DNA from: Sphingomonadales bacterium | GTDB lineage: Bacteria; Pseudomonadota; Alphaproteobacteria; Sphingomonadales; Sphingomonadaceae | Assembly (NCBI GenBank): GCA_027491235.1 | Contig: JAIXWO010000013.1 | Location: 124,001 to 188,000 of the forward strand | DNA length: 64,000 bases | Reading direction: 5' to 3' | Shown: piece by piece, positions 6,530-56,230 of the stretch | Layout: each line of letters begins with the position of its first letter | How positions within the stretch are numbered: position 1 is the first letter of the stretch | Position numbers and translations under genes: made by a program | Notes under the pieces: model-generated | Seen by the model: the letters and a program-made list of their open reading frames with translations, nothing else | Told to the model about the DNA's origin: nothing | The model's database searches: none

Positions 6530-6539
6530 GGAGAGTGTT

Positions 6540-13760: not shown

Positions 13761-13763
13761 CGA

Positions 13764-27209: not shown

Positions 27210-29276
27210 TCACAATTTGACCAATTCGGGCCCCAACGCCGTCCGCAACGGCTCAAGCCAAGGCTCAAAATTCTTCCACTGGTCCAGCCCATCACGGAAA
27301 ATCGGTTGGCGGACCTGTTCGGAGCTCGGCGTCCGTACGCTGCGCTTCGTCTTGTGGAACTCGACGCAGGCTTCCTCAAATGGGAGGCCGCAATAATCCA
27401 GAATGCGACGGACACTGCCCTCGAGATCGTCAATGACATCCTCGTGCTGAACACGCAGAACGCGCCCGGGCAGCACCGCATCCCAGTGATCCATAAGCTC
27501 AACATAGGTGCGATAATAACGCGCAATATCTTCGATGCCGTAGGTGAATTCCTGCCCCTGCGCGAACAACTGCTTAAAGTTGCTGAAGCAGCAGGCCATC
27601 GGGTCACGGCGCGCGTCAATGATCCGCGCATTCGGCAAGATCAGGTGAATCAATCCGACATGCCGGAAGTTATTGGGCATCTTATCGATGAAATGGGGGC
27701 GCCCCAAAGCCCGGTTGGGCATGGTGTCAGCGATGTACTGTTCCCCGAAGGCGCGAATAGCAGCCGCATCAAGCTCAGACAGAATGCCGGGGTAGCGCGG
27801 ATCATCAAAATTGAGTTCGCGGCCCTGCAATTCATGCACGATGCGCTGGACATCGGGCAATTCCTGCGTCCCTTCGACCATGCTGTGTGAGGCGAGGATC
27901 TGTTCGATCAGCGTCGAGCCAGAACGCGGCAAGCCAAGCACGAAGATCGGTGAGCGGTCATCCAGGCCCCAGCCGGCACGTTCCGCAAAGAACGGCGCTG
28001 TACACACGCGCTTTTGCTCACGAGTGTTCGTCTCAAAAAAGCCCGGAATATAGCCGTTGCTCGCGCGGTGCATGGTGTTGCCCTGCTCATAAGCAGCCCA
28101 TGAAGCGGCGTAGTCGCCTTTATCCTCAAGTGCCTTGCCCAGCGCAAACGCGATGTGGATACGGTCAGTTTCGGCAGTGGCGGCGTCATCAAGCCGTTCG
28201 CGCATGACGGCGATAGAAGCATCTGTGAAGCGATAGGTCTTCAGATTGGCGAGGCTCCACCAGGCATCACCGAAATCGGGCCGGTCGGCTGTGGCTGCCA
28301 TATAGGCTTCGATTGCCTCAGCGGTCCTGCCTTCGGTCTTAAGCGCATGGCCAAGCCACAGGTTTAGATCGGAGCGGCGCAACCGTGCAGAGGGCGAGTC
28401 ACCGGGAATCTCCCCCAGCATCGCGCGGTAATCCGGGATCGCCCCTTCAAAATCGCCAAGTCCGACTTGGATGGTCGCCGCCTGAATGCGGTGAGGATGG
28501 GCGGCAGGATCAACCTTGAGCAGCGGCTCAAGAGCTTCGCGGGCCTGCGGGAATTTGTGCCGCGCGATCAGCACCTGCACATATTCGCGGCGCGCTTCGT
28601 AATGGTCCGGCACCATGGCCAGCACACCGGCATAGAGCGTTTCGGCATCATCCAGCACATTGCGCATATGGCCGATCTGCGCGAGCAGACGCATCGCTTC
28701 TGGATGATCGCCGAAGTCGAGCAGGAAACGGCGGATTTGCATCTCGGCCTCATCGACCTCGCCATCCCCGAAAAGCACTTTGGCTTGAACGATCGGTGGC
28801 GGAACGCTTGTGAGATGCGCGACGTGCTTGGCTGCAACCTCCGCACTCTTTGCGTCACCCGTCATCCGGTAAAGTCCGACGAGCATATGCCAGCCCATTA
28901 AAAGGGCGGTATTGAGCATGACCGCAACGCGCAAATCGCTGATCGCAGCGGGCGCATCACGCCGTGCTACATGACAAAGCCCACGTTCAAGAAACAACTG
29001 GCTGAATTGTGGATGGTGCTGAGCCAACCGGTCGAGCATCGCGAAGGCTTCATCGGTCCGTTGGGTCATGCGCAGCGAATGTGCGGCGATAAGGAGCAGA
29101 TCCCGGTTTGTCGGTTCACCTTCAAGCAGTCGGATCGCGCCGGACAACGCGCCAGCATGATCATCATTGGCTTGAAGCGCACGCAGTCCAGCAACCTCTG
29201 CTGCCAACAGAGAGTCCGGAGCGCTCGACGTTGGCTGGGTATCGTCAGAAATCGGAAGGTCGGTTTGTGTGGCCAT
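27210..29276 (-). CDS. TPR-repeat protein with C-terminal sulfotransferase domain
   Basis: 688 residues. The first about 400 form repeated TPR-like helical hairpins; the C-terminal part is a PAPS-dependent sulfotransferase domain with the 5'-phosphosulfate loop FVLGLPRSGSTLIEQILASH near residue 445 and the later ARIIDARRDPMACC strand that binds the 3' phosphate. Genes of this build often follow TonB-dependent receptors in sphingomonads and caulobacters, where their job is unproven. It lies downstream of such a receptor but is separated from it by a strong terminator (29331-29365). No signal peptide is evident, so it probably works in the cytoplasm. Whether it sulfates a small molecule or only binds PAPS-like ligands cannot be told. 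Confidence 0.83.
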   Translation of the reverse strand: MATQTDLPISDDTQPTSSAPDSLLAAEVAGLRALQANDDHAGALSGAIRLLEGEPTNRDLLLIAAHSLRMTQRTDEAFAMLDRLAQHHPQFSQLFLERGLCHVARRDAPAAISDLRVAVMLNTALLMGWHMLVGLYRMTGDAKSAEVAAKHVAHLTSVPPPIVQAKVLFGDGEVDEAEMQIRRFLLDFGDHPEAMRLLAQIGHMRNVLDDAETLYAGVLAMVPDHYEARREYVQVLIARHKFPQAREALEPLLKVDPAAHPHRIQAATIQVGLGDFEGAIPDYRAMLGEIPGDSPSARLRRSDLNLWLGHALKTEGRTAEAIEAYMAATADRPDFGDAWWSLANLKTYRFTDASIAVMRERLDDAATAETDRIHIAFALGKALEDKGDYAASWAAYEQGNTMHRASNGYIPGFFETNTREQKRVCTAPFFAERAGWGLDDRSPIFVLGLPRSGSTLIEQILASHSMVEGTQELPDVQRIVHELQGRELNFDDPRYPGILSELDAAAIRAFGEQYIADTMPNRALGRPHFIDKMPNNFRHVGLIHLILPNARIIDARRDPMACCFSNFKQLFAQGQEFTYGIEDIARYYRTYVELMDHWDAVLPGRVLRVQHEDVIDDLEGSVRRILDYCGLPFEEACVEFHKTKRSVRTPSSEQVRQPIFRDGLDQWKNFEPWLEPLRTALGPELVKL

Positions 29277-29330
29277 GATGCCCTAATGTGTCGGCAATCG
29301 CCGGACGCTTGTCAAACTTGCGGCGCCCTG

Positions 29331-29365
29331 AAAAAGCAAGGGGCGATGCCTATGGCACCGCCCCT
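29331..29365 (-). terminator. Rho-independent terminator after the TonB receptor gene
   Basis: On the minus strand a 12-bp stem (one G-T pair) with a three-base loop, spanning 29339-29365, is followed by TGCTTTTT (29331-29338). It sits 27 bases past the receptor stop and before the TPR gene. It should end most receptor transcripts and leave limited read-through into the downstream operon. Confidence 0.85.
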
Positions 29366-29391
29366 GCCTATCACGTCATCGTGGCACGAGA

Positions 29392-32076: not shown

Positions 32077-32326
32077 CGATATTCTCCCCGATTTTGGTTC
32101 GATTTGATGGTTTTGAACCAGATTTTTATACAATTCTGAGCCACGATGGATTCCAGCCCAATATCTCACAAATGAGCAAATTTTCGGCAACGGTAAATTA
32201 AATTAAGCACCCAATCACAACATCTACATCGCCGAATTAGAACACCTTATGTAGGCACGTCCCCGTTGGAAAGTGCGCCAAGGCACCGCTACGCGCAACA
32301 AAATTCAGGTTTTTGGGGAAGATAAC
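32077..32326. promoter_or_regulatory. Divergent promoter region of the TonB receptor and purU
   Basis: A 250-bp gap. It contains the second copy of the 16-bp AT-rich element (32191-32206), a dyad TGGTT-TTG-AACCA (32108-32120) overlapping a second GAACCA/TGGTTC pairing in the receptor leader (32095-32120), and the receptor Shine-Dalgarno (complement of 32084-32089). Promoter boxes could not be assigned with certainty. Confidence 0.5.
32191..32206 (+). repeat. 16-bp AT-rich element, copy 2 (upstream of TonB receptor)
   Basis: Exact copy of the element at 21646-21661, in the same orientation relative to a minus-strand gene, here 115-130 bases before the receptor start. Shared placement upstream of the first (receptor) and last (LysR) genes of the same gene series suggests a common regulator site. 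Confidence 0.45.
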
Positions 32327-33184
32327 GTGAAGCAAGCTGCCGACTTTGTCCTGCTGATTGCCAGTGTGGACCGCAAAGGAATTGTGGCGGCGGTCGCAAA
32401 ATCGATCGTCAGCCAGGACTGCAACATCGTTGAAAGCGCGCAATTCCGCGACTGCGACAGTGACCGGTTCTTCATGCGGATTGCCATTGCTGGTCCGGCA
32501 GACATGACGGCAGAGCGCTTTTCCGCGGCGTTCGCTCCCGTTGCAGCCGCGTTCGAGCTCGACTGGAGCATCCGGGACCTTAAGCGCAAGCTGCGGGCCA
32601 TGATCATGATAAGCCAGGGCGGGCACTGCCTGAACGACTTGCTCTACCGCACATCAACCCAGCGCCTGCCAATTGACGTGACCAGCGTCGTTTCTAACCA
32701 CACAACCTGGCAGCGCCGCGTTGAGCATGATGGCATTCCCTTCCATCACATGCCCATCACACCGGAAAACAAAGCCGAGCAGGAAGCCAAGCTTGTAGAG
32801 ATGGTGGAAGACCAGCAGGTCGATCTCATCATCCTCGCCCGCTACATGCAGGTGCTGTCCGACAAACTTTGTCAAAAGCTGGATGGCCGCGTGATCAACA
32901 TCCATCACAGCTTCCTGCCAGGGTTTAAGGGCGCCAAGCCTTATCACCGGGCCCATGAGCGCGGTGTCAAAATGGTCGGCGCCACGGCACATTACGTGAC
33001 AGCAGACCTTGATGAAGGGCCGATCATCACCCAAGACGTGTCTATCGTTGACCATTCCGATACCGTCGAGGATCTGATCGCGCAGGGGCAAGACACCGAA
33101 AGCCGTGTCCTCGCCCGCGCGGTCAAGCTCCACAGCGAACATCGCGTGATGCTCAACGGCAATCGCACGGTCGTCTTCAAATAG
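32327..33184 (+). CDS. purU: Formyltetrahydrofolate deformylase
   Basis: 285 residues from a GTG at 32327, preceded by GGGGAAG at good spacing; this matches the roughly 280-residue PurU family. An N-terminal ACT domain (about 1-80, starting DFVLLIASVDRKGIV) regulates activity, and the formyltransferase-like C-terminal domain has the catalytic Asn-His pair in NIHHSFLPGFKGAKPY and the Asp in TADLDEGPII. PurU hydrolyses 10-formyl-THF to formate and THF, balancing C1 and folate pools. In pseudomonads purU-type genes accompany glycine-betaine and sarcosine catabolism, where demethylation loads THF with C1 units. That fits the DMGDH-like genes here, although purU is on its own transcript. Confidence 0.92.
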   Translation: MKQAADFVLLIASVDRKGIVAAVAKSIVSQDCNIVESAQFRDCDSDRFFMRIAIAGPADMTAERFSAAFAPVAAAFELDWSIRDLKRKLRAMIMISQGGHCLNDLLYRTSTQRLPIDVTSVVSNHTTWQRRVEHDGIPFHHMPITPENKAEQEAKLVEMVEDQQVDLIILARYMQVLSDKLCQKLDGRVINIHHSFLPGFKGAKPYHRAHERGVKMVGATAHYVTADLDEGPIITQDVSIVDHSDTVEDLIAQGQDTESRVLARAVKLHSEHRVMLNGNRTVVFK

Positions 33185-43673: not shown

Positions 43674-44898
43674 GTCACGATCACCCCGCACAACGGGCGC
43701 GATTGTTCTGGTTGGCCTGATGGCGCTCAGCCTGTTCATCAACTACATCGACCGCGGCAACCTTGCGACTGGTGCGACACAGATTCGGGCCGATCTCAAT
43801 CTCTCGGCCACAGCCTATGGTGCGCTCGCGGCGGCGTTCTACTTTTCTTATGCGTTCTTCCAGCTTCCGGCGGGTGCCCTGTCGGACCGGATCGGCGGCA
43901 AGCTCGTGCTCGGCCTTGGCGCGCTCCTGTGGTCGCTCTCCACACTCCTCACCGGCTTTGTCGAAGGCTTTATGGGCTTGTTCGTCCTGCGCTTGATGCT
44001 GGGCATGGGCGAGAGTGTTGCGTTCACAACGACCTCCAAGATCATCGCCACCAATGTGCCGCGCGGGCAGATGGGCCTTGCCAATGGAGTGATCGGGTTC
44101 GGCTATCTGGTCGGCCCTGCGGTTGGCACGCTGCTCGGCGGCTTCATGATGGCCCAATGGGGCTGGCGCGCGACCTTCTTTGCCTTTGGCGCAGTTTCAC
44201 TGCTCTGGCTGATTCCATGGAGCCGGGTACGGATCAACGAGGCGAGGCCAACCGAAGGCCCTGATCAGCATCCAGTCACAATGCGCCAGATCCTCGGCAA
44301 GCGCGCCTTGTGGGGGGCCTCGCTCGGCCATTTCGCGGGCAATTGGAACTGGTATTTCATCCTCGGCTATCTGCCGATGTACCTTGAAATGCAGCGGGGC
44401 TTTTCGAAGGAGCATATGGCGGCGGTGGTTTCAAGCGCCTACCTCGTCAATGCGCTGGCTGCGCTGTTTGCCGGCTGGGCCATCGACAAGGCGATCGCGC
44501 GCGGATGGTCCCCTTCGCTCACACTCAAGGGGCCGCTCGCTTTGGCGCATCTGGCGGGCCTGGTGTGCATGCTCGCCATGCCAGCCATGCCAATCTATTG
44601 GTGCATCGCGCTGCTGTTCGTTTACCAAATCGCGCTTGGCCTTTCTTGCCCCGCCTATTTCATCATCCCGCAGATCATGGCCGGCCCCTCCGCCGCCGCG
44701 CGCTGGGTGGGGGTGCAGAATATGATGGGCAATATGCCCGGGATCATCGGCGTGTTTTTCGCCGGTGTGCTGATCGATGCGGGCGGGGGCTCTTACAGCA
44801 CCGCATTCCTGCTGGCGGGCCTCGTCAATATTCTGGGGCTCATTGGCTGGCTCGGCATCTTGCCCAAGGTTGAACCTGTGAATTGGAAAGCGGCCTAG
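43663..44898 (+). CDS. MFS transporter, anion:cation symporter (ACS)-like
   Basis: 411 residues, 12 membrane helices, with the ACS-type beginning [20 protein letters not shown] and [13 protein letters not shown] in loop 2-3. The ACS family takes up organic anions such as hexuronates, glucarate, phthalate or tartrate. Its start lies inside the end of the class II aldolase gene, so a small carboxylate used by that aldolase is a fair guess. Its TAG stop and the stop of the convergent caiD gene share the palindrome CTAG (44895-44898). Confidence 0.86.
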
Positions 44899-45674
44899 CG
44901 CCCTTTCCATTCAGGCGTGCGGCCCTCGGCGAAGGCGCGCGGGCCTTCGAGGGCATCGTCCGAAGCGAGCATCGCGCGATAAGAGGGGATCGCCCCGCTG
45001 CGCATCAACGTGTAGCCTTGTTCCACTTCTACACCCTCAGTCGCACGCAGAATGTCACGCGCGGCAGTAACGGCAAGTGGAGCGGCGCCGGCGATTGCTT
45101 CGGCCAACTCTATCGCGCTGGCGAGCAGCCCTTCGGGTTCCACCACCCGGTTCACGAGGTTCAGCGTGAGCGCCTCATCTGCCTCCAGTCGCCGTCCGGT
45201 GAGGATCATTTCCCGCGCCAGCCGTGCCGGGATGGCCTTGGGCAGCCGGAGCAGCCCACCTGAATCCGGGAGCATGCCAAGCTGCGCCTCGGGCAACCAG
45301 AAGCGCGCGGCGGTGCTCGCGATGATGAGGTCTGCGGCCAGCGCGAGCTCAAACCCACCGCCCACCGCGAGGCCGTTGACTGCCGCGATCACGGGCTTGG
45401 TCAGGCTGAAGTATTCGGTGAGGCCGGCAAAGCCGCCGGGGCCGTGGTCTGCATCAACCGCCTCGCCATCGTTTGCCGCGCCAAGGTCCCATCCAGCGGA
45501 GAAGAACCGCCCTGTGCCGGTGATGATCCCAACACGCAGCGCTGGATCATCATTCAGCGTCTTGAACGCGGCATAGAGTTCCAAGCTGGTCGCCACGTCG
45601 ATGGCATTGGCCTTGGGCCGGTCGAGCGTGATGATCAGCACATCAGCGCGGCGTTCAAGCGTGACGGCACTCAT
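44895..45674 (-). CDS. caiD: Crotonobetainyl-CoA hydratase (carnitinyl-CoA dehydratase)
   Basis: 259 residues of the crotonase family and very close to E. coli CaiD over its whole length: [14 protein letters not shown] (about 57-64), [21 protein letters not shown] with Glu109, LPEAQLG with Glu129 (the crotonase catalytic pair, 20 apart), and the C-terminal [17 protein letters not shown]. CaiD adds water to crotonobetainyl-CoA to give L-carnitinyl-CoA. It is the last gene of an eight-gene operon; its start shares bases with the ligase stop (TAATG). Upstream genes supply a CoA ligase and an acyl-CoA dehydrogenase, which together with CaiD make carnitine from gamma-butyrobetaine. This is the assignment that anchors the operon's function. 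Confidence 0.9.
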
Positions 45675-47770
45675 TATGAAGGCTCCCTCGTTCGGATCAG
45701 AGCATCCACTGCTACAGCCCCTTGGGGCAAGGCGAGCAGCGGATTGACGTCGAGTTCTTCCAGCCCCTCGCCATGCACCATGGCAAAGGCGGCAACGGCT
45801 TCAATAGCATCGACCAGGGCTGGCATATCACATCCCGCACGGCCACGATATCCGGCGAGCACGCTGTGCAGCGGCAGCCTCATCAGTGCGGCCTCAATCT
45901 CCGCGCGGCTGGCGGGCAGCAGCACTTGTTCGACCTGCCGGAGCAACTCGACGAATATGCCGCCAGCACCCAAGGTCATGAACAGGCCGAACTGCGGATC
46001 GCGGCCAACGCCGACGATCAGCTCGGCGACTGTGCCGCCGACCATTTCCTCAATCAGATAGGTGCCGCCAAGTCCGGCCATGCGACGCCCCGCCGCGAGC
46101 AAATCCACGCGGCTGGAGAGCCCGAGCGCGACCCCGCCAAGCTCGGTTTTATGAGCCAGATCGGCACCCACGGCTTTGAGCGCGAGGGGGAATGGTGCCG
46201 GCAGCGGCGCGGCGTCGTCGGCGCACAAGGCTTCCAATTCGGCCAATGTCAGCAAACACCCACGTGGCACCGGCACGCCGTGCGCGGACAGGGCCGCCTT
46301 GCTGCGCACTTCATCCCAAGTTTTCGGTTCACTCGACAAAAGCGGCGGCGATTCAGGCAAGGCCGCAGGTGCAGGGCGAGACCAAGCCGCACCAATTCCG
46401 GCAGCAGCGGCGATCGCTTGCAACGCTTCAGACAGGCCTCCAGCGGGCATGATGCCTTGAGCGATCAACTGTGAAGCGACCGCTTCGGGCAGATTCTCGG
46501 CAAGGGAACTCGCCACGATCCGCACTGTGCCCTCCGCCGCCGGACGCGCCCGCACAGCCGCGAGATAGGCCGCGATGGTCACATCCCAGTCTGCACCAGT
46601 GCAGCGGTCTGCGCGGGGGAAATCGAGGATGAGCAGCGAAGCTTCGAAATCCGCCCCAAGCATCCCGGCAAAGCACGCCGTCTGCGCCGCTTCGTCGCCC
46701 CAGATATAGGTGTGGTAATCGAGCGGATTGGCGACATTGACCCGGGGACCCAGCAACGCTTCAAGCTCTGCCTGTGTCGCTGCTGGAAAGTCCGGCGTCT
46801 CAAGCCCTGCCCGCTCGGCCAAGTCCGCGGTGAGCGAAGCTTCACCACCCGAACAACTGGCGCTGGTGACCCGTCGCCCCCGCAGAGGACCCGCAACATG
46901 GAGCAGCTTTAGTGTCTCAAGGAAACTCGCCGGATCATGCGCCCGCGCCACGCCATAGCGCGCGAACAATGCATCACACAGCGCATCAGCACCCGCGAGC
47001 GAACTGGTGTGCGACAGCGTCAGCGCCGCGCCCTTGGCCGACGCCCCGGTCTTGAGTGCCACCAACGGCACTCCGGCTGCGCGCGCGGCAAGGCACGCTT
47101 CAGAAAACCGCGCGACTGAACCCAGCCCTTCCAGGTGCAACCCGATGGCGCTGATCCGTTTGTCCTGCACCAACGCTTCGATCAGATCTGCCGGCGTCAC
47201 ATCCGCGCAATTGCCGACGGAGATGACATAGCCAATCGGCAGCCCGCGCGACTGCATGGTGAAGTTGAGCGCGAGGTTGCCGCTCTGACTGATGATTGCG
47301 ACGCCCCGAGCGCCCTTGGACCCTGCCTCAATCGGCAGGCAGCCATGTTGATCCGGCCAGAGCGCCACGCGGTCAAACAGGTTGAGCATGCCGTAGCAAT
47401 TCGGCCCGACGAGCGGCACGCCATCGGCTGCGGCAAGAAGCTCAGCCTGTCGGGCCTGCCCCACTTCACCGCTCTCGGCAAAATCGGCCGCATAGCATAT
47501 TGCACCACCGACCCCTGCAAGCTCGCCCGCCAGCGCAATCGTCGCAGGTGCTGGAGCGGCGATGAACACGGCATCCGGCGCTTCAGGCAGCGCCGCCATA
47601 TCAGCAAAGCAAGGCAGCCCACCCATTTCTGCCCGCTTTGGGTTGACCGGCCAGATTGGGCCCGCAAATCCCAATGCACGGCATTGCCGCACGGCTTCCT
47701 CGGCTGCCTTGCCGCCCACAATGGCCAAGCTACGCGGGCGCAGCAGGCGGGCTAATCTGTCTGCGCTCAT
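45674..47770 (-). CDS. ADP-forming acyl-CoA synthetase, probably gamma-butyrobetaine/crotonobetaine/carnitine CoA ligase
   Basis: 698 residues joining a CoA-binding domain ([17 protein letters not shown], about 14-30), a succinyl-CoA-ligase-like domain with [10 protein letters not shown] and the phospho-His loop in SHTSSLAG, and a C-terminal ATP-grasp domain (about 480-698, with [20 protein letters not shown]). This is the fused NDP-forming acyl-CoA synthetase architecture; it forms acyl-CoA and ADP. In E. coli the same step is done by AMP-forming CaiC or CoA transferase CaiB. Its start overlaps the acyl-CoA dehydrogenase stop (ATGA), and its stop overlaps caiD, so a betaine-type acid is the expected substrate. 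Acetyl- or other acyl-CoA formation cannot be ruled out by sequence. Confidence 0.85.
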
Positions 47771-48915
47771 ACCTCCAACGGACGCAGCAGCGCGCGGCTG
47801 ATGATGTGGCGCTGGATTTCGCTGGTGCCGTCCCAGATGCGCTCAACACGCGCGTCGCGCCAGAAGCGTTCGATGGGAAGCTCATCCATCAGCCCCATGC
47901 CGCCAAAGATCTGCAGCGCATTGTCGGTTACGCGGGCGAGCGCTTCGGAAGCGAACAGCTTAGCCATGGCCGCATCGGTATCGGTCATCATGCCCTGATC
48001 ATCCTTCCACGCGGCGCGGAGGGTGAGGAGTTCGGCGGCTTCCAGTTCGGTCTTCATGTCCGCCAGCTTGAAGCCGGTGCCCTGAAACTTGCCGATCGCC
48101 TGGCCGAATTGCTTGCGCGTCGCGGCCCACTGCGTTGCCATTTCGAGCACACGTTGGCCACGCCCGACCGACGTCGTGGCGACCTGCAGGCGGGTCGAGC
48201 CCAGCCACTGGCCCATTAGCTCAAAGCCCTTGTCGAGTTCGCCCAGCAGGCTGGAAGCTGGCACGCGGCAATCCTCAAAGATCAGCTCGCATTGGTGATA
48301 GCCCCGATGTGACACGCACTTGGGGCCCTGCCTGCGGGTGAGGCCGGGCGTGTCAAAATCGACGAGGAAGCAGCTGATTGTCTTCTTGCCGCCCGCTTCG
48401 CCCGTGGCCGCGCAGAGGATCACGAAGTCCGCCACATCGGCATGGCTGATGAAATGTTTGGAGCCGTTGATGACAAAGTCGCTGCCATCGCGGCGGGCGA
48501 ATGTCCGCATGGACCGCACGTCGGACCCGGCATCAGGCTCGGTCATGGCGAGACAGTCATGGCGCTCCCCGCGGATCGTCGGGAGCAGATAATCTTCGAT
48601 CTGGCTGCCCTCGCACCCGCGCAGGATATTGCTCGGCCGCGCAATCATCATTTGCAGGCCATAGCTGGCGCGGCCCAGTTCGCGCTCCATAAGCGTGGTG
48701 TCGAACGTCCCAAGGCCGCCACCGCCCAGCTCTGCGGGCATGTTCACGGCATAAAGCCCGAGCGCCTGTGATTTGGCGCGGATGTCGGCAGCAAGCTCAA
48801 CCGGCACATCGTCGGTCTCCTCGACCATCTTCTCGTGCGGATAGAGCTCAGTCTCGACAAAGCGTCGGACCGTTTCGACCAGCATCTGCTGTTCGGAAGA
48901 GAGTTCAAAATGCAT
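47767..48915 (-). CDS. Acyl-CoA dehydrogenase, probably gamma-butyrobetainyl-CoA dehydrogenase
   Basis: 382 residues of the acyl-CoA dehydrogenase family: an N-terminal helical domain, the middle barrel with AMTEPDAGSDVRSMRT (FAD signature 1, about 117-132), and the C-terminal helical domain with the QIFGGMGLMDELPIERFWRDARV signature and GTSEIQR (about 365), the flavin-contact block. The E. coli counterpart CaiA reduces crotonobetainyl-CoA; here, in an aerobe-like oxidative operon, oxidation of gamma-butyrobetainyl-CoA to crotonobetainyl-CoA with electrons to ETF is expected. It starts on the stop of the thioesterase gene (TGATG) and ends on the ligase start. Confidence 0.87.
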   Translation of the reverse strand: MHFELSSEQQMLVETVRRFVETELYPHEKMVEETDDVPVELAADIRAKSQALGLYAVNMPAELGGGGLGTFDTTLMERELGRASYGLQMMIARPSNILRGCEGSQIEDYLLPTIRGERHDCLAMTEPDAGSDVRSMRTFARRDGSDFVINGSKHFISHADVADFVILCAATGEAGGKKTISCFLVDFDTPGLTRRQGPKCVSHRGYHQCELIFEDCRVPASSLLGELDKGFELMGQWLGSTRLQVATTSVGRGQRVLEMATQWAATRKQFGQAIGKFQGTGFKLADMKTELEAAELLTLRAAWKDDQGMMTDTDAAMAKLFASEALARVTDNALQIFGGMGLMDELPIERFWRDARVERIWDGTSEIQRHIISRALLRPLEV

Positions 48916-49499
48916 CAGCCCGCATTCCCTTGGTGGTTCCGTTTGATGGCAATACTGCGCCCAGCCTGTGCCGGACGCGGAAGGTCTGCATGAGCGGCAA
49001 GCACAGCCTGCACGCGCGCGTTGAGATCTGGCGGCATCGGCGTGCTGCGCCCGGCCGCCATGTCGACATGGACCAGCATCTGCTCGCCGGTCGCCAGCAG
49101 TTCGCCGGTCTCGGCATTGTGCATGGCATGGAAGATGTGCAGCCGTTTCTCGTCTGCGTCGATCAAGTGGAGCGAGAGGTCAAGCCGGTCGCCAAGATGC
49201 GCTTCGGCGAGATTGAAGATCATCGTCTGCACAGTGAACAGCGAATGTCCGCCCGCGCGATAAGCCTCATCAATCCCGATCAGGCGGAAGAACGCGTCCG
49301 ACTGATCCCCGAAGGCGAGGAGGTAGCAGGACTCGCTCATGTGCCCGTTATAGTCGACCCACGCACGCGGGACGGTCGGACTGATCAGGTGCAAGGGCGC
49401 CGCAATCGTCTCACCGGGCGTGATCGGTTTAGCGGCAACGCCTTCCAGCGGCGTGTGCAGGCCGTGGCCCGTGTCTTCCAAATCACTTTGCGGCGTCAT
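48915..49499 (-). CDS. Hotdog-fold acyl-CoA thioesterase (4-hydroxybenzoyl-CoA thioesterase-like)
   Basis: 194 residues from the ATG at 49499. The segment WVDYNGHMSESCYLLAFGD is the hotdog-thioesterase signature with the catalytic-site Asp/Asn/His residues, and the C-terminal half has RLHIFHAMHNAETGE and EQMLVHVD. It is clearly homologous to the thioesterase domain fused to the carnitine dehydrogenase at 51983-53458 (WIDYNEHMTEYCYLKLFGD), so the operon has two copies of this domain. In Pseudomonas and Sinorhizobium the relatives hydrolyse betainyl-CoA. One of the two here may release carnitine from carnitinyl-CoA, the missing step between CaiD and carnitine dehydrogenase. Its first 17 bases overlap the hydrolase gene. 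Confidence 0.85.
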   Translation of the reverse strand: MTPQSDLEDTGHGLHTPLEGVAAKPITPGETIAAPLHLISPTVPRAWVDYNGHMSESCYLLAFGDQSDAFFRLIGIDEAYRAGGHSLFTVQTMIFNLAEAHLGDRLDLSLHLIDADEKRLHIFHAMHNAETGELLATGEQMLVHVDMAAGRSTPMPPDLNARVQAVLAAHADLPRPAQAGRSIAIKRNHQGNAG

Positions 49500-50544
49500 G
49501 ATCGGGCCCTTTCCTCTGTCCGGCCTGCCAGGCACAGATGCCGAGCGTCGCGCCCTTGGTGAGTTGGGCTGGCGCGACGAGACCAGCCACCAGCCGGGCG
49601 CGACCATGTTCGCAGATCAGCGTGTGGTCACCCCGCCCCGCGACATCGAGCAGTAGTTGATCCCAATGGCGGTATTGCACGTCATGGCCTTCACCGGGAT
49701 AGCGGCGGAAGGTGACTTTGCCGGCCACTTTGCTGGCCCAATACGCGCCCTGATCTGGAGGGACGAGCGCATCGGCCTCACCATAATAGAAGAAGGCTGG
49801 CGCCGGAAACGCCGCCACCGGTGCGGGCGCATCACAGAATCGACGATATTCGCGCGCGACACCGCGCGCATCGCCGCGCTGACCGGCGATGAAATAGGCA
49901 TGTGCGCCTTCATCTGCTGCGCGATCGATAAAGCCGCGAACTTTACCCGCGACGCCATCCTGAGGCATGGCCCAGAACTGACGCGGTGCGCCGACCTGTT
50001 GCGCAAGCCCCGCCTCCAGCGTGGCCTGATCGGCAGTGCAGACAGGGCTCGTTGGCGGGGCAGACGCAATGGCAGCGAGCATGTGCCAAGAGGTCACCCG
50101 CTCAGGCATGGCGGCCGCAATATGTCCAGCATAGGCACCGCCACCCGAGATCGCGACGAGCGCGAACCGCTGAACGCCAAGTTGGGCCAATACCTGCCGA
50201 ACTTCGCTGGTGTAATCGTCAAACGTCCAGGCGGGATCATAAGCTGTGTCGCCAAGACCGTTACGTTCCACCGCGATGATCCGCACCTTGAGGCGGCGGC
50301 GCAGCGTATCGAGAAAGGCGACCAGTTCTGGCGCGCGGGCGCTCGTGCCGACGCCGCCGATGAACAGCATGGGCGTCCAACCCGCCTCGCCGGTATCGGT
50401 GAAATGGACCGTGCGCCCCTCGCGGGTCTGCAGGCTCTGCAGCGGCGTGCCGATGGGATCGAATTGATCGGGAAACGCAATGGGCTGGGCAAGCGCCGGG
50501 ACCGCAAATGTCAGCGCTGCCGCAGCGAGGAGAGTCCGGATCAT
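49483..50544 (-). CDS. Secreted alpha/beta hydrolase, possible acylcarnitine esterase
   Basis: 353 residues beginning with a signal peptide (MIRTLLAAAALTFAVPALAQ), so the protein is periplasmic. The alpha/beta-hydrolase triad can be traced: Ser133 in AISGGGAY, Asp in GEADALVPP (about residue 260) and His in GEGHDVQY (about 288). Embedded in the carnitine operon (ATGA overlap with the permease before it, 17-base overlap with the thioesterase after it), it may cleave O-acylcarnitines in the periplasm and free carnitine for uptake. In Pseudomonas aeruginosa the unrelated-in-sequence or distantly related hydrolase HocS has that role. The assignment here rests on context only. Confidence 0.75.
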   Translation of the reverse strand: MIRTLLAAAALTFAVPALAQPIAFPDQFDPIGTPLQSLQTREGRTVHFTDTGEAGWTPMLFIGGVGTSARAPELVAFLDTLRRRLKVRIIAVERNGLGDTAYDPAWTFDDYTSEVRQVLAQLGVQRFALVAISGGGAYAGHIAAAMPERVTSWHMLAAIASAPPTSPVCTADQATLEAGLAQQVGAPRQFWAMPQDGVAGKVRGFIDRAADEGAHAYFIAGQRGDARGVAREYRRFCDAPAPVAAFPAPAFFYYGEADALVPPDQGAYWASKVAGKVTFRRYPGEGHDVQYRHWDQLLLDVAGRGDHTLICEHGRARLVAGLVAPAQLTKGATLGICAWQAGQRKGPDHDAAK

Positions 50545-51947
50545 CGCACGGGCTCCGTTTCCAGATTGCGGTCAAGCGCTTCGATCTGCGCCAGTTCACC
50601 CGAAAGATCGAGGCTGCGGCAAAGGATGAGATAGACCGCCGCCGAGACCGGCAAACCAATCAGCATCGAGATATCTGCACCGCCGAGCGCCTTTGCGACG
50701 GGCCCCACGTAGAGCTCCGTCTTAAAGAACGGGATCATGGCAATGAAGCCGACAGCGTAAGATGTAAGCCCGCGCCAATTCGACCGGCCATAGAGACCAT
50801 CTGCCATAAACATCGCGCGGATCGAATAGCGACCCTTCCGCACGAAGAAGAAGTCCACAAGGTTGATCGCGGTCCAAGGCGTGAAGAGGTAGACCAGCAC
50901 GGCGAGGAACGCCTCTAGCGCGTGAAGCACATTCCCACTGAGGGCGAGCGAAAGGGCCAGTGATGTCCCGAGGACGGCGACCAATGCCGCCATGCGTGAT
51001 GCTATGCCGAGCCGGATCGGGGTCACGCTATCAACGACGCTGAGCATGGTGAGCGAGGCGCCATAGAGGTTGAGCGAGGTGATCGTGATCAACCCGCCGA
51101 AGCTGCTGACCAGCATGATGACACCGAACCCGCCAAACATTGCATCCGCACTTTGGCGCAGTGCGACGACAATATCGGCGTTGGAAAAGGCCGCAGCAGC
51201 AAACGCGCCGACGAGCATCATCCACGCACCGCCGATGAAAGCCCCCCAGAAAGTCCAGAAGAACGAGGCACGGATGCCCACCTCGCGCGGCAAATAGCGC
51301 GAATAGTCCGACACATAGATGGACCAGCTCAGCTGATATCCAGCGGCGGCAAAAAACTGGACAAGGAACAATGTGGGCTTGAATGGGCCCAGCTGGAGCA
51401 GCGTTGCAAGATCAACAACGGCGAAAAACCCGACAGTATAGACCGCCAGCACCGCCAGCATGAGATAGGCGAGCAGGCGCTGCGCCTTGTGGATCAGGTC
51501 ATAGCCTGCCGCCGCGATGAGGGCCGCGAGGATTGCGAAGACGATGATCGTCGGCCCCTCCGGCAGGCCGACGAGTTCCTTGACTGTACTCGCCGCAAGC
51601 GACTGGTTGAGGGCATTAAACCCGATATAGGTTACTAGCGCGACGACCCAGACGAGGAGCGCGCCCAAATAGCCAAATTGGGGACGGGACTGGATCATCT
51701 GCGGCAGGCCCAGTTGCGGACCTTGCGAACAATGCAGCGCCATCAGCACTGTGCCGAGAATGCAGCCGCCAATGACTGCGAGGCTTGACCAGAAGAGGTC
51801 GAGCCCGCCCACCACGCTGATCGCGCCTGTGGCAAGGGTGGCCAGATGCGCGTCGCCAGTAAACCACACCGGCCAAAGATGACGCACTTCACCGCGCCGC
51901 TCCGCCAGAGGGACGTAGTCGATCGAACGGGTTTCAATCATGGCCAT
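50541..51947 (-). CDS. NCS1-family permease, candidate carnitine/gamma-butyrobetaine importer
   Basis: 468 residues from the ATG at 51947, which has GGAGAG seven bases upstream; the frame's earlier TTG has none. About 12 membrane helices with the NCS1 beginning (RHLWPVWFTGDAHLATLATG) and the family's HCSQGPQLGLPQM and TPWTAINLVDFF segments. NCS1 porters usually import cytosine, purines, hydantoins or thiamine. Here it lies between the carnitine dehydrogenase and the hydrolase, where other bacteria have a BCCT or ABC carnitine transporter, so a trimethylammonium substrate is likely. It starts 35 bases after the dehydrogenase stop and ends in an ATGA overlap with the hydrolase. Confidence 0.8.
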   Translation of the reverse strand: MAMIETRSIDYVPLAERRGEVRHLWPVWFTGDAHLATLATGAISVVGGLDLFWSSLAVIGGCILGTVLMALHCSQGPQLGLPQMIQSRPQFGYLGALLVWVVALVTYIGFNALNQSLAASTVKELVGLPEGPTIIVFAILAALIAAAGYDLIHKAQRLLAYLMLAVLAVYTVGFFAVVDLATLLQLGPFKPTLFLVQFFAAAGYQLSWSIYVSDYSRYLPREVGIRASFFWTFWGAFIGGAWMMLVGAFAAAAFSNADIVVALRQSADAMFGGFGVIMLVSSFGGLITITSLNLYGASLTMLSVVDSVTPIRLGIASRMAALVAVLGTSLALSLALSGNVLHALEAFLAVLVYLFTPWTAINLVDFFFVRKGRYSIRAMFMADGLYGRSNWRGLTSYAVGFIAMIPFFKTELYVGPVAKALGGADISMLIGLPVSAAVYLILCRSLDLSGELAQIEALDRNLETEPVR

Positions 51948-51982
51948 GCGGTATCTCTCCCCCAAAAACGTCGTCTGGCCGG

Positions 51983-53458
51983 TCAGCCGGGCATCCTGAT
52001 CTGGCGGCCCACACCCTCAGGTAGCGGCAGTTGCGCCTGACCTGCAATGAGGGCCTGTGCCACATCCTGCATGGTCTGCGGTGCCGGAGCCGACTTCTCA
52101 GCCTTGGCATCGACATGGACCAGCATATGCTCTGCAGTCGCGATGACCGCGTCCTGTTTCAGGCTGATCATTTCGTGGAACAGATGCAGGCGCTTGGCAT
52201 CGGCGGCCAGCACGCGGGTTCGGACCTCGATGGGTTCCCCCAGCCGTGATTGGCCGAGATGGCGGATGTGCGTCTCAACCGTGTACCAGGAATGGCCCGC
52301 CGCGACATAGTCTGCGCCAGCACCGATTTTGGCCAGCACCACATCCGTCGCATCGCCGAACAGCTTGAGATAGCAATATTCGGTCATGTGTTCGTTATAG
52401 TCGATCCACTCGGGTTGGACCGGCGTGGAGATGGTCAATAGCCGCCCGTCGGGTCCTGTCGAACCGATGTCGGCAGCCCCGCCATCCAGCCGCAATCGAT
52501 GCGCACGCGCCACGGCACCAGCAGCGAAATCATTGCGCTCCAACGCATGGGTTAAATCGACAAGGCAGTCGTCGCGCAGCTTTTCATAGGTGCGCAGATC
52601 GATGCCGCCCGCCTGCTCATCGGACTGGCGCGAAATCGTGTCGATCAATTCGTCCGTCAGCTTCGGGCCGATCAGCTTGGTCCAGGGCCATTCCATTGAC
52701 GGGCCGAACTGATGCAGGAAGTGCCGCATGCCATCCTCGCCGCCTGCAAGCCGGTAGACGAGGAACGTGCCCATGAAGGACCAGCGCATCCCCGCGCCAA
52801 AGCGGATCGCATCGTCAATTTCAGACGCCGTCGCGATGCCGTCATTGATCAGCCACAGCGCCTCACGCCACACGGCTTCCAGCAGGCGGTCCGCGATGAA
52901 ACCGTCAATCTCCTTGCGGACGTGCAGCACCTTCATGCCGATGCGTTCATAGACGGCGGCGGCGATGTCCTTCGTTTCCTGACTGGTCAGGTCCCCGCCG
53001 CAGATTTCGACGAGCGGCAACAAATAGACCGGATTAAACGGATGGCCGACGACCAGCCGGTCTGGCCGCGCCATGCCGGCCTGTAACTTGGTTGGAAGCA
53101 GACCCGACGTCGAGGAGCCGATCACTGCATGGGCAGGCATCGCTGCGTCAATCTCGGCGAGCAGCCGGACTTTCAGGTCCTCGCGTTCGGGCAGGCTTTC
53201 CTGAATGAAATCAGCATCGCGCACCGCATCGGCAAGCGAAGCGGCAAACGTCAAGGTGCCTTCGGCGGGCAGCGCTTGGCCGAACAGCCGGGTCAAAGCC
53301 CTGCGCGCGTTGGCGAGGACCGCGGCCGTCTTGCGCTCAATCTCTGGGTCCGGATCATAGACCGACACATCGATCCCATTGAGCGCAAAGCGCGCCGCCC
53401 AGCCCGCGCCGATGACGCCGCCGCCGACAATTCCGACTTTCCGGATCTCCTGTGTCAT
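51983..53458 (-). CDS. L-carnitine dehydrogenase fused to a thioesterase domain
   Basis: 491 residues in two parts. Residues 1-320 form a 3-hydroxyacyl-CoA-dehydrogenase-like L-carnitine 3-dehydrogenase: GIVGGGVIGAGWAARFALNG (NAD motif), SSTSGLLPT, and the catalytic His in GHPFNPVYLLPLVEI. From about 345 to the end lies a hotdog thioesterase domain with WIDYNEHMTEYCYLKLFGD. The dehydrogenase turns L-carnitine into 3-dehydrocarnitine with NAD+; the thioesterase half is expected to hydrolyse betainyl-CoA made by the next enzyme. Such fusions are known in rhizobial carnitine dehydrogenases, whereas Pseudomonas keeps CdhA and CdhB apart. The gene follows the cleavage enzyme by 13 bases. Confidence 0.93.
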   Translation of the reverse strand: MTQEIRKVGIVGGGVIGAGWAARFALNGIDVSVYDPDPEIERKTAAVLANARRALTRLFGQALPAEGTLTFAASLADAVRDADFIQESLPEREDLKVRLLAEIDAAMPAHAVIGSSTSGLLPTKLQAGMARPDRLVVGHPFNPVYLLPLVEICGGDLTSQETKDIAAAVYERIGMKVLHVRKEIDGFIADRLLEAVWREALWLINDGIATASEIDDAIRFGAGMRWSFMGTFLVYRLAGGEDGMRHFLHQFGPSMEWPWTKLIGPKLTDELIDTISRQSDEQAGGIDLRTYEKLRDDCLVDLTHALERNDFAAGAVARAHRLRLDGGAADIGSTGPDGRLLTISTPVQPEWIDYNEHMTEYCYLKLFGDATDVVLAKIGAGADYVAAGHSWYTVETHIRHLGQSRLGEPIEVRTRVLAADAKRLHLFHEMISLKQDAVIATAEHMLVHVDAKAEKSAPAPQTMQDVAQALIAGQAQLPLPEGVGRQIRMPG

Positions 53459-53471
53459 GTTCCGCTTGCTC

Positions 53472-54362
53472 CTAGCGCTTGGTCAGCTTGAGTTTGGTGC
53501 GGACTTCGGCGGGGCTCATAATGCGTGCGCCCATGCCCGTCAGGATCTGCACGGCGCGCTCGACCAGCTGGCCATTGCTCGCAAACTCACCGCGGCCGAG
53601 ATAGAGGTTGTCTTCCAGCCCGACACGCACATTGCCACCTGCAAGTGCTGCCATGGCGACGAAGGGCAGCTGGTTGCGGCCGATGGAAAAGCCGCTGAAG
53701 ATCGCTCCCGGCGGCAGCTGGTGGACCATCGCCATCGTGGTGAGGGGATCATCCGGCGCGCCATAGGGGATGCCCAAGCACAGCTGGATCATGACCGGAT
53801 CATCGAGGAGGCCGTCGCGGATCATCTCCTTCACGAAGACGAGGTGCCCGGTGTCGAACACTTCCAGTTCCGGCCGCACGCCGAGGCGCTGCACTTCTGC
53901 TGCCATGGTGCGCAGCATGCCGGGCGTGTTGGTCATGACATAATCGGCTTCGGCGAAGTTCATCGTGCCGCAGTCAAGCGTGCAGATTTCCGGCAGCAGT
54001 TCCTGCACGTGCAGCAGGCGCTCCATCGGGCCGACCATGTCAGTGCCTGCGGGATCGAGCGGGAAAGGGTTTTCGCCCGGGCCGAAAACGATATCGCCGC
54101 CCATGCCGGCCGTAAGGTTGATCACCACATCGGTGTCGCTGGCGCGTATCCGCTCCACCACTTCACGGTAGAGCCGGACATCGCGGCTTCCCTTGCCCGT
54201 TTCGGGATCGCGCACATGGATATGGGCAATTGCGGCCCCTGCGCGCGCTGCTTCAATCGCGGCATCGGCGATTTGTGCAGGCGTGATCGGCAAAGCAGGG
54301 TGCTTATCTGCGGTGGCGCCCGAGCCGGTCACGGCGCAGGTGATAAACGTTTCAAAATTCAT
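53472..54362 (-). CDS. Beta-keto acid cleavage enzyme (dehydrocarnitine:acetyl-CoA, CdhC-like)
   Basis: 296 residues from the ATG at 54362, with GAGG nine bases upstream; the longer frame adds 70 unrelated residues. This is a BKACE (formerly DUF849) barrel enzyme with the zinc His pair in [14 protein letters not shown] (about 40-53), a conserved Glu in [11 protein letters not shown], and [12 protein letters not shown] near the C-terminus. In carnitine catabolism the enzyme condenses 3-dehydrocarnitine with acetyl-CoA to yield betainyl-CoA and acetoacetate. It is the first gene of the operon, directly followed by the dehydrogenase that makes its substrate and divergent from a CdhR-like regulator, as in Pseudomonas. 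Confidence 0.93.
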
Positions 54363-54415
54363 GGCATATCCTCTTATCCTGGTCCGCAGCTTAGCTCGTG
54401 ATGTCCCGAAACAAA

Positions 54416-54450
54416 TCGTAAAAAGCGACAAATGATTGCAAAAAGCGACA
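54416..54450. promoter_or_regulatory. Two 15-bp direct repeats 20 bp apart, candidate operator of the carnitine regulator
   Basis: TCGTAAAAAGCGACA (54416-54430) and TTGCAAAAAGCGACA (54436-54450) match at 13 of 15 bases and are spaced exactly two helical turns apart, as AraC-type regulators prefer. They fill the 109-bp gap between the BKACE start and the regulator start. The 10-mer GCGACAAATG within it (54425-54434) recurs in the promoter region of the DMGDH-Rieske operon (16240-16249). Confidence 0.6.
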
Positions 54451-54471
54451 TTCCCTGACACGTCCAATGAT

Positions 54472-55422
54472 ATGACGCAGTCGCTCGCCTTCATCCTCAT
54501 GCCCGGCTTTTCAGCGATTGCATTTTTTGCCGCGCTTGAACCTCTGCGCATTGCCAACCGCCTGTCGGGCAAAGCTCTTTTTACTTGGACAATCCACGCC
54601 CCCGATGGGGACTATGCCGCGGCCTCAAACGGGATGCAGTTGCGCTCTGATGGGCCCCTGCCCGATGCGCCCCATACACTCGTGGTTTGTGCGGGCTTTG
54701 ATCCGCTCGACCGCGCCCGCCCGACCCTGCTGGGGCAGATCCGCCGAATGTGGCGCGCGGGGTGTCAGATCGGGTCCATCGATACAGGCGCCTTCGTGCT
54801 GGCCGAGGCGGGCATTTTGGGGCGGGAGATGATCACACTCCACTGGGAGGCGGCGGAAGACTTTCGTCGTCGCTATCCCCGCATACCGGTGTCGACCGAA
54901 CTCTATGAACGCCATGCCCGGCTGATCACCTGTGCAGGCGGCACTGCGGCGATGGACATGATGCTAGATGACATCGCAGCCCACCATGGTCTCACGCTCG
55001 CCCAAGCCGTTTCGGATCAATTGATCCATGATCGCATCCGCCCAGCCAGCGCGCCGCAGCGCACCGTGCTGGCCCCGCAGACACAGTTTGCAGGGCCAGT
55101 GGTCAAACGCCTTGTCACAGCAATGGAGCGGGGCATTGCCGGGGGGCGTCCGCTCTCCGCCATTCTAGCCAACGAGGGTCTCCACCGTCGTCAGGCCGAA
55201 CGCCTGTTTGAGGCCGAGTTGGGCATGAGCCCCGGGCGCTTTTACCGCACGCTGCGGATCCGCCACGCAGTCGACCTGATGCGCCAGACCGGAATGCCAG
55301 TCCACGAAGCGGCGTTGACTGCGGGCTTTTCCTCACAGCCGGTCTTTTCGCGGGCATGTCGGCAGCAATTTGGCCTCTCCCCGCGAGACATTCTCGCCGG
55401 GTCGGAACTCTCGGCCGATTGA
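54472..55422 (+). CDS. GATase1-like AraC-family regulator (CdhR/GbdR-like)
   Basis: 316 residues from the ATG at 54472; an in-frame TTG at 54436 lies inside the probable operator. The N-terminal half is a DJ-1/PfpI (class I glutamine amidotransferase-like) ligand domain (with [11 protein letters not shown] near residue 110), and the C-terminal about 100 residues are a double helix-turn-helix AraC domain with [22 protein letters not shown]. CdhR (carnitine), GbdR (betaine/dimethylglycine) and GlxA share this build. Divergent placement against the carnitine operon strongly suggests activation of that operon by carnitine or a related compound. A role in the betaine operon at 9-16 kb is possible because of the shared promoter word. 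Confidence 0.9.
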
Positions 55423-55438
55423 CCGCGCCAGTCTCTCG

Positions 55439-56230
55439 TCAGGCGTCCATATCTAGCGATAGGCTCTCGGTATGCCCGTCGATGGCTAACGCCTGACCCG
55501 AGATTCGCTGCCCGGCGGGCGAGGTGAGGAAGCGCACCATGCCCACGATATCGTCATTGGTCGCAAAGGCCCTGAGCGAGGACTGGCGCTTGTATTCGCG
55601 CTCCACCTCATCGACCGTCAGTCCGCGCGCTGCGGCATCCGCTGCGATGACCCGGTCGATCCTTGGCCCTTCGACGCTTGCGGGGCACAGCGCGTTGGCG
55701 CGGATGCCTTCGGGGCCCAATTCCATCGCCAGCGTTTTCGTGAGACCTATCAGCGCCCATTTGCTGGCCACATAAGGCCCCCGCAGCGGACAGCCCATCA
55801 GCCCGGCGTTGGAACTCATCGTGATGATTGAGCCGCCCGGTCCCTTGGCGCGCAGCAGAGGGATCGCGCGCCGCGTCATCAGGAACATGCCGCTGATATT
55901 GATATCAATGGTCCGCAGCCATGCGTCCACCGGCTGATCCTCCAGCCGCGCGGTCGGGCCGGATATGCCGGCGTTGTTGACGAGGAGATCGATGCCGGAA
56001 AGACCTGCGCGCGCCAGATCCGTCTCCACCGCATGGTAAAACGCTTCCACCGCCCCGGCGTCGCTCACATCGCAGGCATGGGCCAAGAGCGCCGGATCGG
56101 TCTGCGCCAGTGCAATCAGCGCAGTCTCATCGGAATCGCAGACATAGACTCGCCATCCGTCTGTGTTCAGGCCCCGGGCAATCGCAAGGCCAATACCGCT
56201 CGCAGCGGCGGAGATGATGGCAGTCTGCAT
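55439..56230 (-). CDS. Short-chain dehydrogenase/reductase
   Basis: 263 residues: an NAD(P) loop near the start (AIISAAASGIGLAIARGL, with the first glycine of TGxxxGxG replaced by Ala), NNAGISG (about 88-94), Ser in TMSSNAG, YVASKWAL with the catalytic Tyr and Lys (about 155-159) and a C-terminal GQALAIDGH. An Asp after strand 2 suggests NAD. It ends 16 bases from the stop of the CdhR-like gene and is transcribed towards it, after a flavoprotein gene. The AAASGIG version of the cofactor loop is unusual, but many SDRs tolerate Ala. I cannot name the substrate; 3-hydroxybutyrate or a sugar alcohol are typical for this clade. Confidence 0.82.
   Translation of the reverse strand: MQTAIISAAASGIGLAIARGLNTDGWRVYVCDSDETALIALAQTDPALLAHACDVSDAGAVEAFYHAVETDLARAGLSGIDLLVNNAGISGPTARLEDQPVDAWLRTIDINISGMFLMTRRAIPLLRAKGPGGSIITMSSNAGLMGCPLRGPYVASKWALIGLTKTLAMELGPEGIRANALCPASVEGPRIDRVIAADAAARGLTVDEVEREYKRQSSLRAFATNDDIVGMVRFLTSPAGQRISGQALAIDGHTESLSLDMDA

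Follow-up and report, generated by a model that had tools for sequence, protein, structure and literature searches.

A route from gamma-butyrobetaine to glycine betaine in Sinorhizobium meliloti, described by Bazire et al. in 2019, reportedly comprises seven steps catalyzed by five enzymes. The cai system of Escherichia coli (caiTABCDE) runs in the opposite physiological direction. We analyzed a stretch of 64,000 nucleotides from a Sphingomonadales bacterium (positions 124,001 to 188,000 of contig JAIXWO010000013.1, assembly GCA_027491235.1; henceforth the window), in which an operon of eight genes at positions 44895–54362 very probably encodes, as two joined modules, an aerobic pathway that breaks down gamma-butyrobetaine and L-carnitine to glycine betaine. 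In S. meliloti, BcoAB was described as a gamma-butyrobetaine:CoA ligase and used with ATP and CoA to make gamma-butyrobetainyl-CoA in vitro (PMC8364193), and the protein SM2011_c01638 dehydrogenates carnitine and turns betainyl-CoA into glycine betaine (PMC12482172). The caiX-cdhCAB-hocS operon of Pseudomonas aeruginosa likewise leads from carnitine to glycine betaine, is accompanied by a divergent AraC-type regulator (CdhR) with direct repeats, and also serves the hydrolysis of short-chain acylcarnitines via hocS (PMC5806209). In contrast to the window, no butyrobetaine module is named for that operon, and it has the CaiX binding protein with an ABC porter instead of a permease of the NCS1 family. 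Relative to the published S. meliloti route, the window operon is a variant whose new parts are a stand-alone thioesterase, the NCS1 permease and an alpha/beta hydrolase.

The eight open reading frames (ORFs) all lie on the minus strand; Pfam and NCBIfam profile matches, together with the junctions read from the sequence, recovered the genes, their order, domains and tight spacing as given in the initial annotation. The first gene encodes BKACE (53472–54362; PF05853, 333 bits; best PDB relative 3c6c, E 2.6e-87) and is followed by a carnitine 3-dehydrogenase fused to a hotdog thioesterase (LcdH-TE1; 51983–53458; NF005716, 662.1 bits against a cut-off of 592), the NCS1-family permease, a proposed carnitine/betaine porter (50541–51947; PF02133, 163.7 bits against a cut-off of 23.5), the alpha/beta hydrolase, probably exported and proposed to be an acylcarnitine esterase (49483–50544; PF00561), and the stand-alone hotdog thioesterase, termed TE2, a proposed L-carnitinyl-CoA thioesterase (48915–49499; PF13279). 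The remaining three genes encode an acyl-CoA dehydrogenase recognized by Pfam (47767–48915; a proposed gamma-butyrobetainyl-CoA dehydrogenase), an ADP-forming-type acyl-CoA synthetase (45674–47770; CoA_binding_2, Succ_CoA_lig and ATP-grasp_5), which we regard as a fused BcoAB-type ligase, and a CaiD-like crotonobetainyl-CoA hydratase (44895–45674; NF002936). Short gaps were found at two of the seven junctions, namely 13 bp between BKACE and LcdH-TE1, and 35 bp between LcdH-TE1 and NCS1 (17 bp with TTG at 51965 as the NCS1 start). The other five overlap: NCS1 and the hydrolase at ATGA, the hydrolase and TE2 by 17 bp, TE2 and the dehydrogenase at TGATG, the dehydrogenase and the ligase at ATGA, and the ligase and CaiD at TAATG. 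For TE2, the start was taken as the ATG at 49499, a better fit than the 49607 of the mechanical ORF list. Scans of 44000–55500 for promoters and terminators gave counts no higher than those of shuffled sequences (2 vs. 2.5 and 5 vs. 7.8, respectively).

The chemistry of the operon is set by LcdH, which exceeds the cut-off of the curated carnitine 3-dehydrogenase model, by BKACE, which exceeds its Pfam cut-off, and by CaiD, which is 58.3% identical to CaiD of E. coli K-12 over 259 positions; by established family knowledge, the three fix it as the conversion of crotonobetaine/carnitine to betainyl-CoA and glycine betaine. After removal of the CaiD and dehydrogenase rows outside set lengths and identities, the catalytic pair Glu109 and Glu129 of CaiD was kept in all 95 aligned relatives (window included), and with this pair and the identity given above, the protein should work like its E. 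coli counterpart. In module A (TE2, dehydrogenase, ligase and CaiD), the ligase would convert gamma-butyrobetaine, ATP and CoA via a phosphohistidine to the CoA ester and ADP, the flavoprotein dehydrogenase would oxidize gamma-butyrobetainyl-CoA to crotonobetainyl-CoA, CaiD would hydrate the latter to carnitinyl-CoA, and TE2 would release L-carnitine from L-carnitinyl-CoA. In module B (BKACE and LcdH-TE1, plus NCS1 and the hydrolase in this lineage), LcdH would oxidize carnitine to 3-dehydrocarnitine, BKACE would react 3-dehydrocarnitine with acetyl-CoA to give acetoacetate and betainyl-CoA, which the fused TE1 would hydrolyze to glycine betaine, while NCS1 may take up carnitine or butyrobetaine and the hydrolase may free carnitine from acylcarnitines in the periplasm. 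Glycine betaine could then pass to a Rieske demethylase, a dimethylglycine/sarcosine dehydrogenase and a sarcosine oxidase encoded on the same contig. As for E. coli, profile matches placed none of the eight genes in the CaiC, CaiB or CaiT families, and the window dehydrogenase is 32.1% identical to CaiA, of which the residue at the base position is Gly.

The rhizobial loci closely resemble the window. In Rhizobium etli p42c, the regulator, BKACE, LcdH-thioesterase, acyl-CoA dehydrogenase, ligase and CaiD genes follow in the same order, and the ligase orthologue is intact and annotated as an 'acetate--CoA ligase family protein'. In the record of S. meliloti Ak57 (CP090106.1), all five enzyme types recur in unchanged order, next to a divergent regulator of the AraC type, and the window thus shares with both rhizobial loci the linkage of BKACE, LcdH-thioesterase, dehydrogenase, ADP-forming-type ligase and CaiD that typifies the S. 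meliloti cluster. In S. meliloti, however, two ORFs occupy the ligase place between the dehydrogenase and CaiD; the one of 480 amino acids matches residues 6–467 of the window ligase (45%), and the one of 228 amino acids matches residues 474–696 (41%). Because the number of gene names equals that of the ORFs, and these lie where expected, we infer that the ORFs encode BcoA and BcoB, and that the window ligase is a fused BcoAB; the formation of gamma-butyrobetainyl-CoA by the window ligase is carried over from S. meliloti on this ground. The S. meliloti cluster further differs in that ABC transporter genes follow it, whereas NCS1 lies inside the window operon, and in having neither TE2 nor a match to the window alpha/beta hydrolase. 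A gene for a CocE/NonD family hydrolase is annotated ~8 kb downstream in both rhizobial records. The Ak57 record is titled pSymB yet comprises 3.7 Mb; the title looks misassigned, because the SMc genes of this cluster are chromosomal in the reference strain. The initial annotation had read the operon as an oxidative route from gamma-butyrobetaine via carnitine to glycine betaine with a ligase of the ADP-forming family, and had considered the combination of such a ligase with CaiD and LcdH as possibly undescribed. LcdH, CaiD, BKACE and the orthologous rhizobial clusters lend the route good support, and the ligase family was borne out as well (see below), but the novelty of the ligase falls with the rhizobial orthologues, among them that in the very S. 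meliloti operon whose route the initial annotation had cited, and with the published BcoAB, and we dropped it.

The ligase shows the hallmarks of ADP-forming acyl-CoA synthetases, namely CoA-binding, ligase and ATP-grasp domains and a phospho-His at position 254; ADP and phosphate are thus the products expected from the family. Its orthologues (42–93% identity) were separated from paralogues (30–37% identity), and the named relatives at 64–93% identity were mostly those of Novosphingobium and other Sphingomonadales, for which reason the host, with its genome of 3.39 Mb, is probably a Novosphingobium-like sphingomonad. Rows outside 640–760 amino acids or with stops were removed, and residues were then counted in 97 orthologous sequences (window included) and 31 paralogues. 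The nearest solved structure in both phmmer (E 4.6e-55) and Foldseek (E 3.2e-49; template modelling (TM) score 0.83) was DddX at 26–27% identity, an ATP-dependent lyase which ligates CoA to the sulfonium betaine dimethylsulfoniopropionate (DMSP) and then eliminates dimethyl sulfide (PMC8163506). By VIA-align, 2csu_A and DddX were level (Z 39.1 vs. 38.9), with 2csu covering only the first 465 residues of the ligase. The ligase model had a mean predicted local distance difference test score (pLDDT) of 91.3, and the loop 252–257, which holds His254, was its low-confidence segment. With the DddX positions mapped by hand on the alignment, His254 equals DddX His292 and was kept in 97/97 orthologous sequences. 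Trp357 was found in 97/97 orthologous sequences and 0/31 paralogues, and Tyr352 in 95/97 and 0/31, respectively. Trp395, the counterpart of the cation-pi residue Phe435 of DddX, was present in 91/97 orthologous sequences, while the paralogues have a gap (29/31) or Trp (2). These three residues appear suited to a trimethylammonium group. Unlike the lyase, the ligase has His353, flanked by Tyr352 and Trp357, in place of Trp391, and Gly392 in place of the elimination base Glu432, with Glu at that site in a single one of the 97 orthologous sequences. The retention of the aromatic residues and the absence of the base are as expected of a ligase for a trimethylammonium acid devoid of lyase activity.

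We next consider the neighborhoods of the ligase gene. The 80 named loci were fetched by the ligase alone as the best 80 of 359 matches and are thus biased to close relatives; 20 further loci came from a phylum-wide sample of 398 genomes. Counts were restricted to loci flanked by 6.5 kb or more on each side (40 named loci and 19 of the 20 in the phylum sample), and neighbors were scored within 3.5 kb for the dehydrogenase and CaiD, and within 9 kb for LcdH and BKACE. The dehydrogenase and CaiD were found beside the ligase in 40/40 flanked named loci, implying that the grouping is beyond chance, and LcdH and BKACE in 32/40 and 30/40, respectively. The co-occurrence with CaiD and LcdH, for which the initial annotation had proposed a cluster search, was thereby found. 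Among the 19 loci of the phylum sample, the dehydrogenase was found at 18, a close CaiD at 16 and LcdH at 9. The loci L114 and L122, of N. fuchskuhlense and N. sediminis, contain the full set of eight genes. An LcdH-like gene (44–47% identity) was also detected in all 8 actinobacterial genomes in which the stretch with TE2, dehydrogenase, ligase and CaiD had none, and in one of them (L183) it lay ~10 kb from module A by contig coordinates. This suggests that the two modules can be unlinked.

The proposed route contains two hydrolyses of CoA esters, those of L-carnitinyl-CoA and betainyl-CoA. A tree of 124 hotdog domains was built from 60 fused or LcdH-linked and 64 dehydrogenase-linked domains, with three thioesterase hits of no clear neighbor excluded. 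Of the 64 TE2 rows, 63 formed one clade (support 100/99) spanning alpha- and betaproteobacteria and actinomycetes, and the sole row outside this clade was a contig-end fragment on a very long branch (L117). Sister to the TE2 clade was the LcdH-linked domain found in Kiloniella-type clusters (L168, L170, L173 and L177), which themselves have no TE2. The LcdH-linked domain occurs alone in both rhizobial records (R. etli and S. meliloti) and in several loci of families f14 and f24 (L189, L191, L200, L202 and L203), and TE2 was present in some Hyphomicrobiales contigs (L133, L145, L147 and L151). We regard TE2 as the probable L-carnitinyl-CoA thioesterase of the butyrobetaine module, the fused domain presumably keeping betainyl-CoA where both exist. 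A 'carnitinyl-CoA hydrolase' activity is mentioned in a review (PMC2131755), which assigns no gene to it. The term carnitinyl-CoA thioesterase yielded nothing among the open-licence titles and abstract beginnings listed, so that it may still occur elsewhere in the literature.

The distribution of NCS1 and the hydrolase was surveyed across 199 genomes of the family (E 1e-60 for the LcdH fusion, NCS1 and ligase; E 1e-20 for the hydrolase). The full-length LcdH fusion, NCS1 and the hydrolase were found in the same three genomes (G000, G127 and G140), so that NCS1 accompanies LcdH in 3/3 genomes with the fusion, and two more had only a match of 39–40% to the first 300 residues of LcdH. A close ligase orthologue was detected in G000 and G127, and none in G140 at E 1e-60; in G140, BKACE and LcdH lie on one strand and NCS1 and the hydrolase on the other. 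A plasmid of N. capsulatum (L206) carries a similar set, with a TonB receptor adjoining NCS1, the hydrolase after LcdH, and no ligase in the 25 kb fetched. From this distribution, NCS1 and the hydrolase are assigned to the carnitine half. A phosphocholine-specific phospholipase C gene and the TonB receptor adjoin NCS1 in this plasmid cluster (L206 3860–9832). Among the loci fetched by the ligase, NCS1 was found in 15 and the hydrolase in 18 of the 80 named ones, all of sphingomonad type, and both were found in 0/20 of the phylum sample. Known substrates of the NCS1 family include nucleobases and hydantoins. The window NCS1 did not reach the subfamily model TIGR00800 (94.4 vs. 353 bits), had no PDB match at E 0.001, and is proposed from its gene context to take up carnitine. 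Neither carnitine transport by NCS1 nor butyrobetaine use by Novosphingobium was found among the open-licence titles and abstract beginnings listed, which does not prove absence. The N-terminal stretch of the hydrolase resembles a signal peptide by eye, the catalytic triad of Ser133, Asp258 and His287 is kept by 15/15 sequences in one alignment (a second had 14 rows), and its model (pLDDT 73) showed a generic esterase-like fold only. We propose acylcarnitines as the first-guess substrate of this probably exported protein because the P. aeruginosa carnitine operon holds hocS.

Upstream of BKACE, outside the span of the initial annotation, a divergent AraC-family regulator with a GATase-1-like domain, similar to CdhR and GbdR, is encoded on the plus strand (54472–55422; the long ORF begins at 54436, and ATG 54472 is the likely start). 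HTH_18 was over the Pfam cut-off, DJ-1_PfpI just under it (25.9 vs. 26.6), and the closest model was that of GbdR (NF052371, 238 bits). A direct repeat TGTCGC-N14-TGTCGC on the minus strand at 54425–54450, matched exactly, is a candidate operator and resembles the CdhR half-site GGTCGC with a 15 bp spacer in P. aeruginosa (PMC5806209). The repeat alone is not beyond chance (two found against 0.82 expected in the window at up to one mismatch). A repeat of the same form was found in 5/6 sphingomonad relatives with the divergent regulator and 0/9 without it; upstream of BKACE, it was found in none of the 16 regulator-bearing loci outside sphingomonads, and the N. capsulatum plasmid lacked it as well. 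With GG permitted at the beginning of the half-site, this looser pattern matched 6/40 loci lacking an adjacent divergent regulator. Nine Novosphingobium-type clusters (L106, L108, L109, L111–L114, L120 and L122) have neither an adjacent AraC-type regulator nor the TGTCGC repeat, and another motif close to BKACE (about AATTCGSCATTCC) recurs in most of their upstream stretches, which points to regulation by another protein.

Candidate genes for glycine betaine degradation lie on the same contig, 29–65 kb from the operon. A quaternary-amine demethylation island left of the operon (window 8999–16220 and positions 104100–124000 of the contig, C8; L218) includes two Rieske demethylase-like genes, for which GbcA was the best model (284 and 416 bits; cut-off 670), indicating family kinship only. 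Two dimethylglycine/sarcosine dehydrogenase-like genes were found in the window, and two soxBA sets and a BCCT porter gene on the contig, with soxB over the cut-off in 2/2 and soxA in 1/2. With the gene for the formyltetrahydrofolate deformylase PurU (32273–33184) also in the window, glycine betaine can plausibly be carried on to glycine. A homocysteine S-methyltransferase family gene (6501–7418), 60% identical to one a few kb from the L105 operon, may use betaine or S-methylmethionine. In two relatives, genes for a TonB-dependent receptor and a TPR-sulfotransferase are inserted between the hydrolase and TE2 (L035 14418–18979; L115 3389–7977). The window has a distant pair of this kind at 27210–32190, which was not counted as part of the system because it shares only 34% and 48% identity with the inserted pair of G127 and L115.

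Several observations weigh against the assignment of the whole operon to one route. CaiD scored below the NF002936 equivalog cut-off (352.6 vs. 500), and the dehydrogenase and the regulator were also under their nearest curated cut-offs (480 bits for the latter). In the motif IWDGTSEIQ of the dehydrogenase, residue 362, which we take to be the place of the usual catalytic Glu base of acyl-CoA dehydrogenases, is Asp in the window (Asp in 86/95 and Glu in 9/95 relatives). The identification of the S. meliloti ORFs as BcoA and BcoB is our own, and functions are assigned to the window proteins from sequence. In the flanked phylum sample, 10/19 loci had no LcdH within 9 kb; an LcdH match lies elsewhere in the four of these ten genomes that were queried (G206, G264, G280 and G295). 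L196 and L197 (family f44) had only a distant CaiD, and L198 had neither the dehydrogenase nor CaiD, implying that the link of the ligase group to this pathway is not universal. In four loci of family f11 (L184, L185, L187 and L188), which do have LcdH, BKACE, dehydrogenase, ligase and CaiD, searches with the window domains detected no hotdog domain on LcdH and no TE2. Thus, the thioesterase picture is not uniform: either these loci rely on another type of thioesterase, or their route differs. TE2 may also be dispensable, since S. meliloti manages with the fused thioesterase alone.

Three other explanations were weighed against the catabolic route. The least credible by far is that the ligase is a DMSP lyase of the DddX type, or another ADP-forming ligase placed here by chance; DddX is indeed the nearest solved structure, but the missing elimination base led us to reject the lyase, and the recurrence of identical neighbors at 40/40 flanked named loci speaks against chance. 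It is improbable, albeit less so, that, with the same chemistry, the CoA module is in nature mainly fed with a trimethylammonium acid other than gamma-butyrobetaine, be it crotonobetaine or a longer betaine, or that the cluster chiefly makes carnitine or glycine betaine as osmoprotectants and not for growth. Substrate chain length is unreadable from sequence, seven actinobacterial loci among the 40 had module A with no LcdH inside 9 kb, as had the ten of the phylum sample, and a BCCT porter gene lies on the contig ~53 kb from the operon. On the other hand, S. meliloti BcoAB takes gamma-butyrobetaine (PMC8364193), the soxB and demethylase-like genes on the contig favor catabolism, and all eight actinobacterial genomes queried have an LcdH-like gene outside the stretch first fetched. 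The remaining explanation, that TE2, NCS1 and the hydrolase are unrelated to carnitine (a broad thioesterase, a nucleobase porter and a detoxifying esterase kept by operon position), is unlikely but the most serious of the three: no homologue of known substrate was found for NCS1 or the hydrolase, and both were found only in sphingomonad-type loci. Against it, the two occur in exactly the genomes with the LcdH fusion, one of them differently arranged, and again beside LcdH on the N. capsulatum plasmid, while TE2 is one clade kept beside the dehydrogenase across alpha- and betaproteobacteria and actinomycetes. We retain the two-module catabolic route. That it further includes the first NCS1 porter for carnitine or gamma-butyrobetaine, a dedicated L-carnitinyl-CoA thioesterase (TE2) that shares with the related fused domain the two hydrolyses done by one fused enzyme in S. 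meliloti, and a periplasmic esterase feeding in acylcarnitines is a tentative extension, to which we give somewhat less than even chances.

Altogether, the CoA-dependent route for butyrobetaine and carnitine, worked out in one rhizobium, occurs across sphingomonads, Comamonadaceae and actinomycetes, often in metagenome-assembled genomes, and consists of two separable modules. The Trp357/Trp395 signature offers a way to better name a group of proteins now annotated as 'acetate--CoA ligase family', TE2 may be a case of thioesterase specialization, and carnitine would be a testable substrate for an NCS1 subfamily outside nucleobases and hydantoins.

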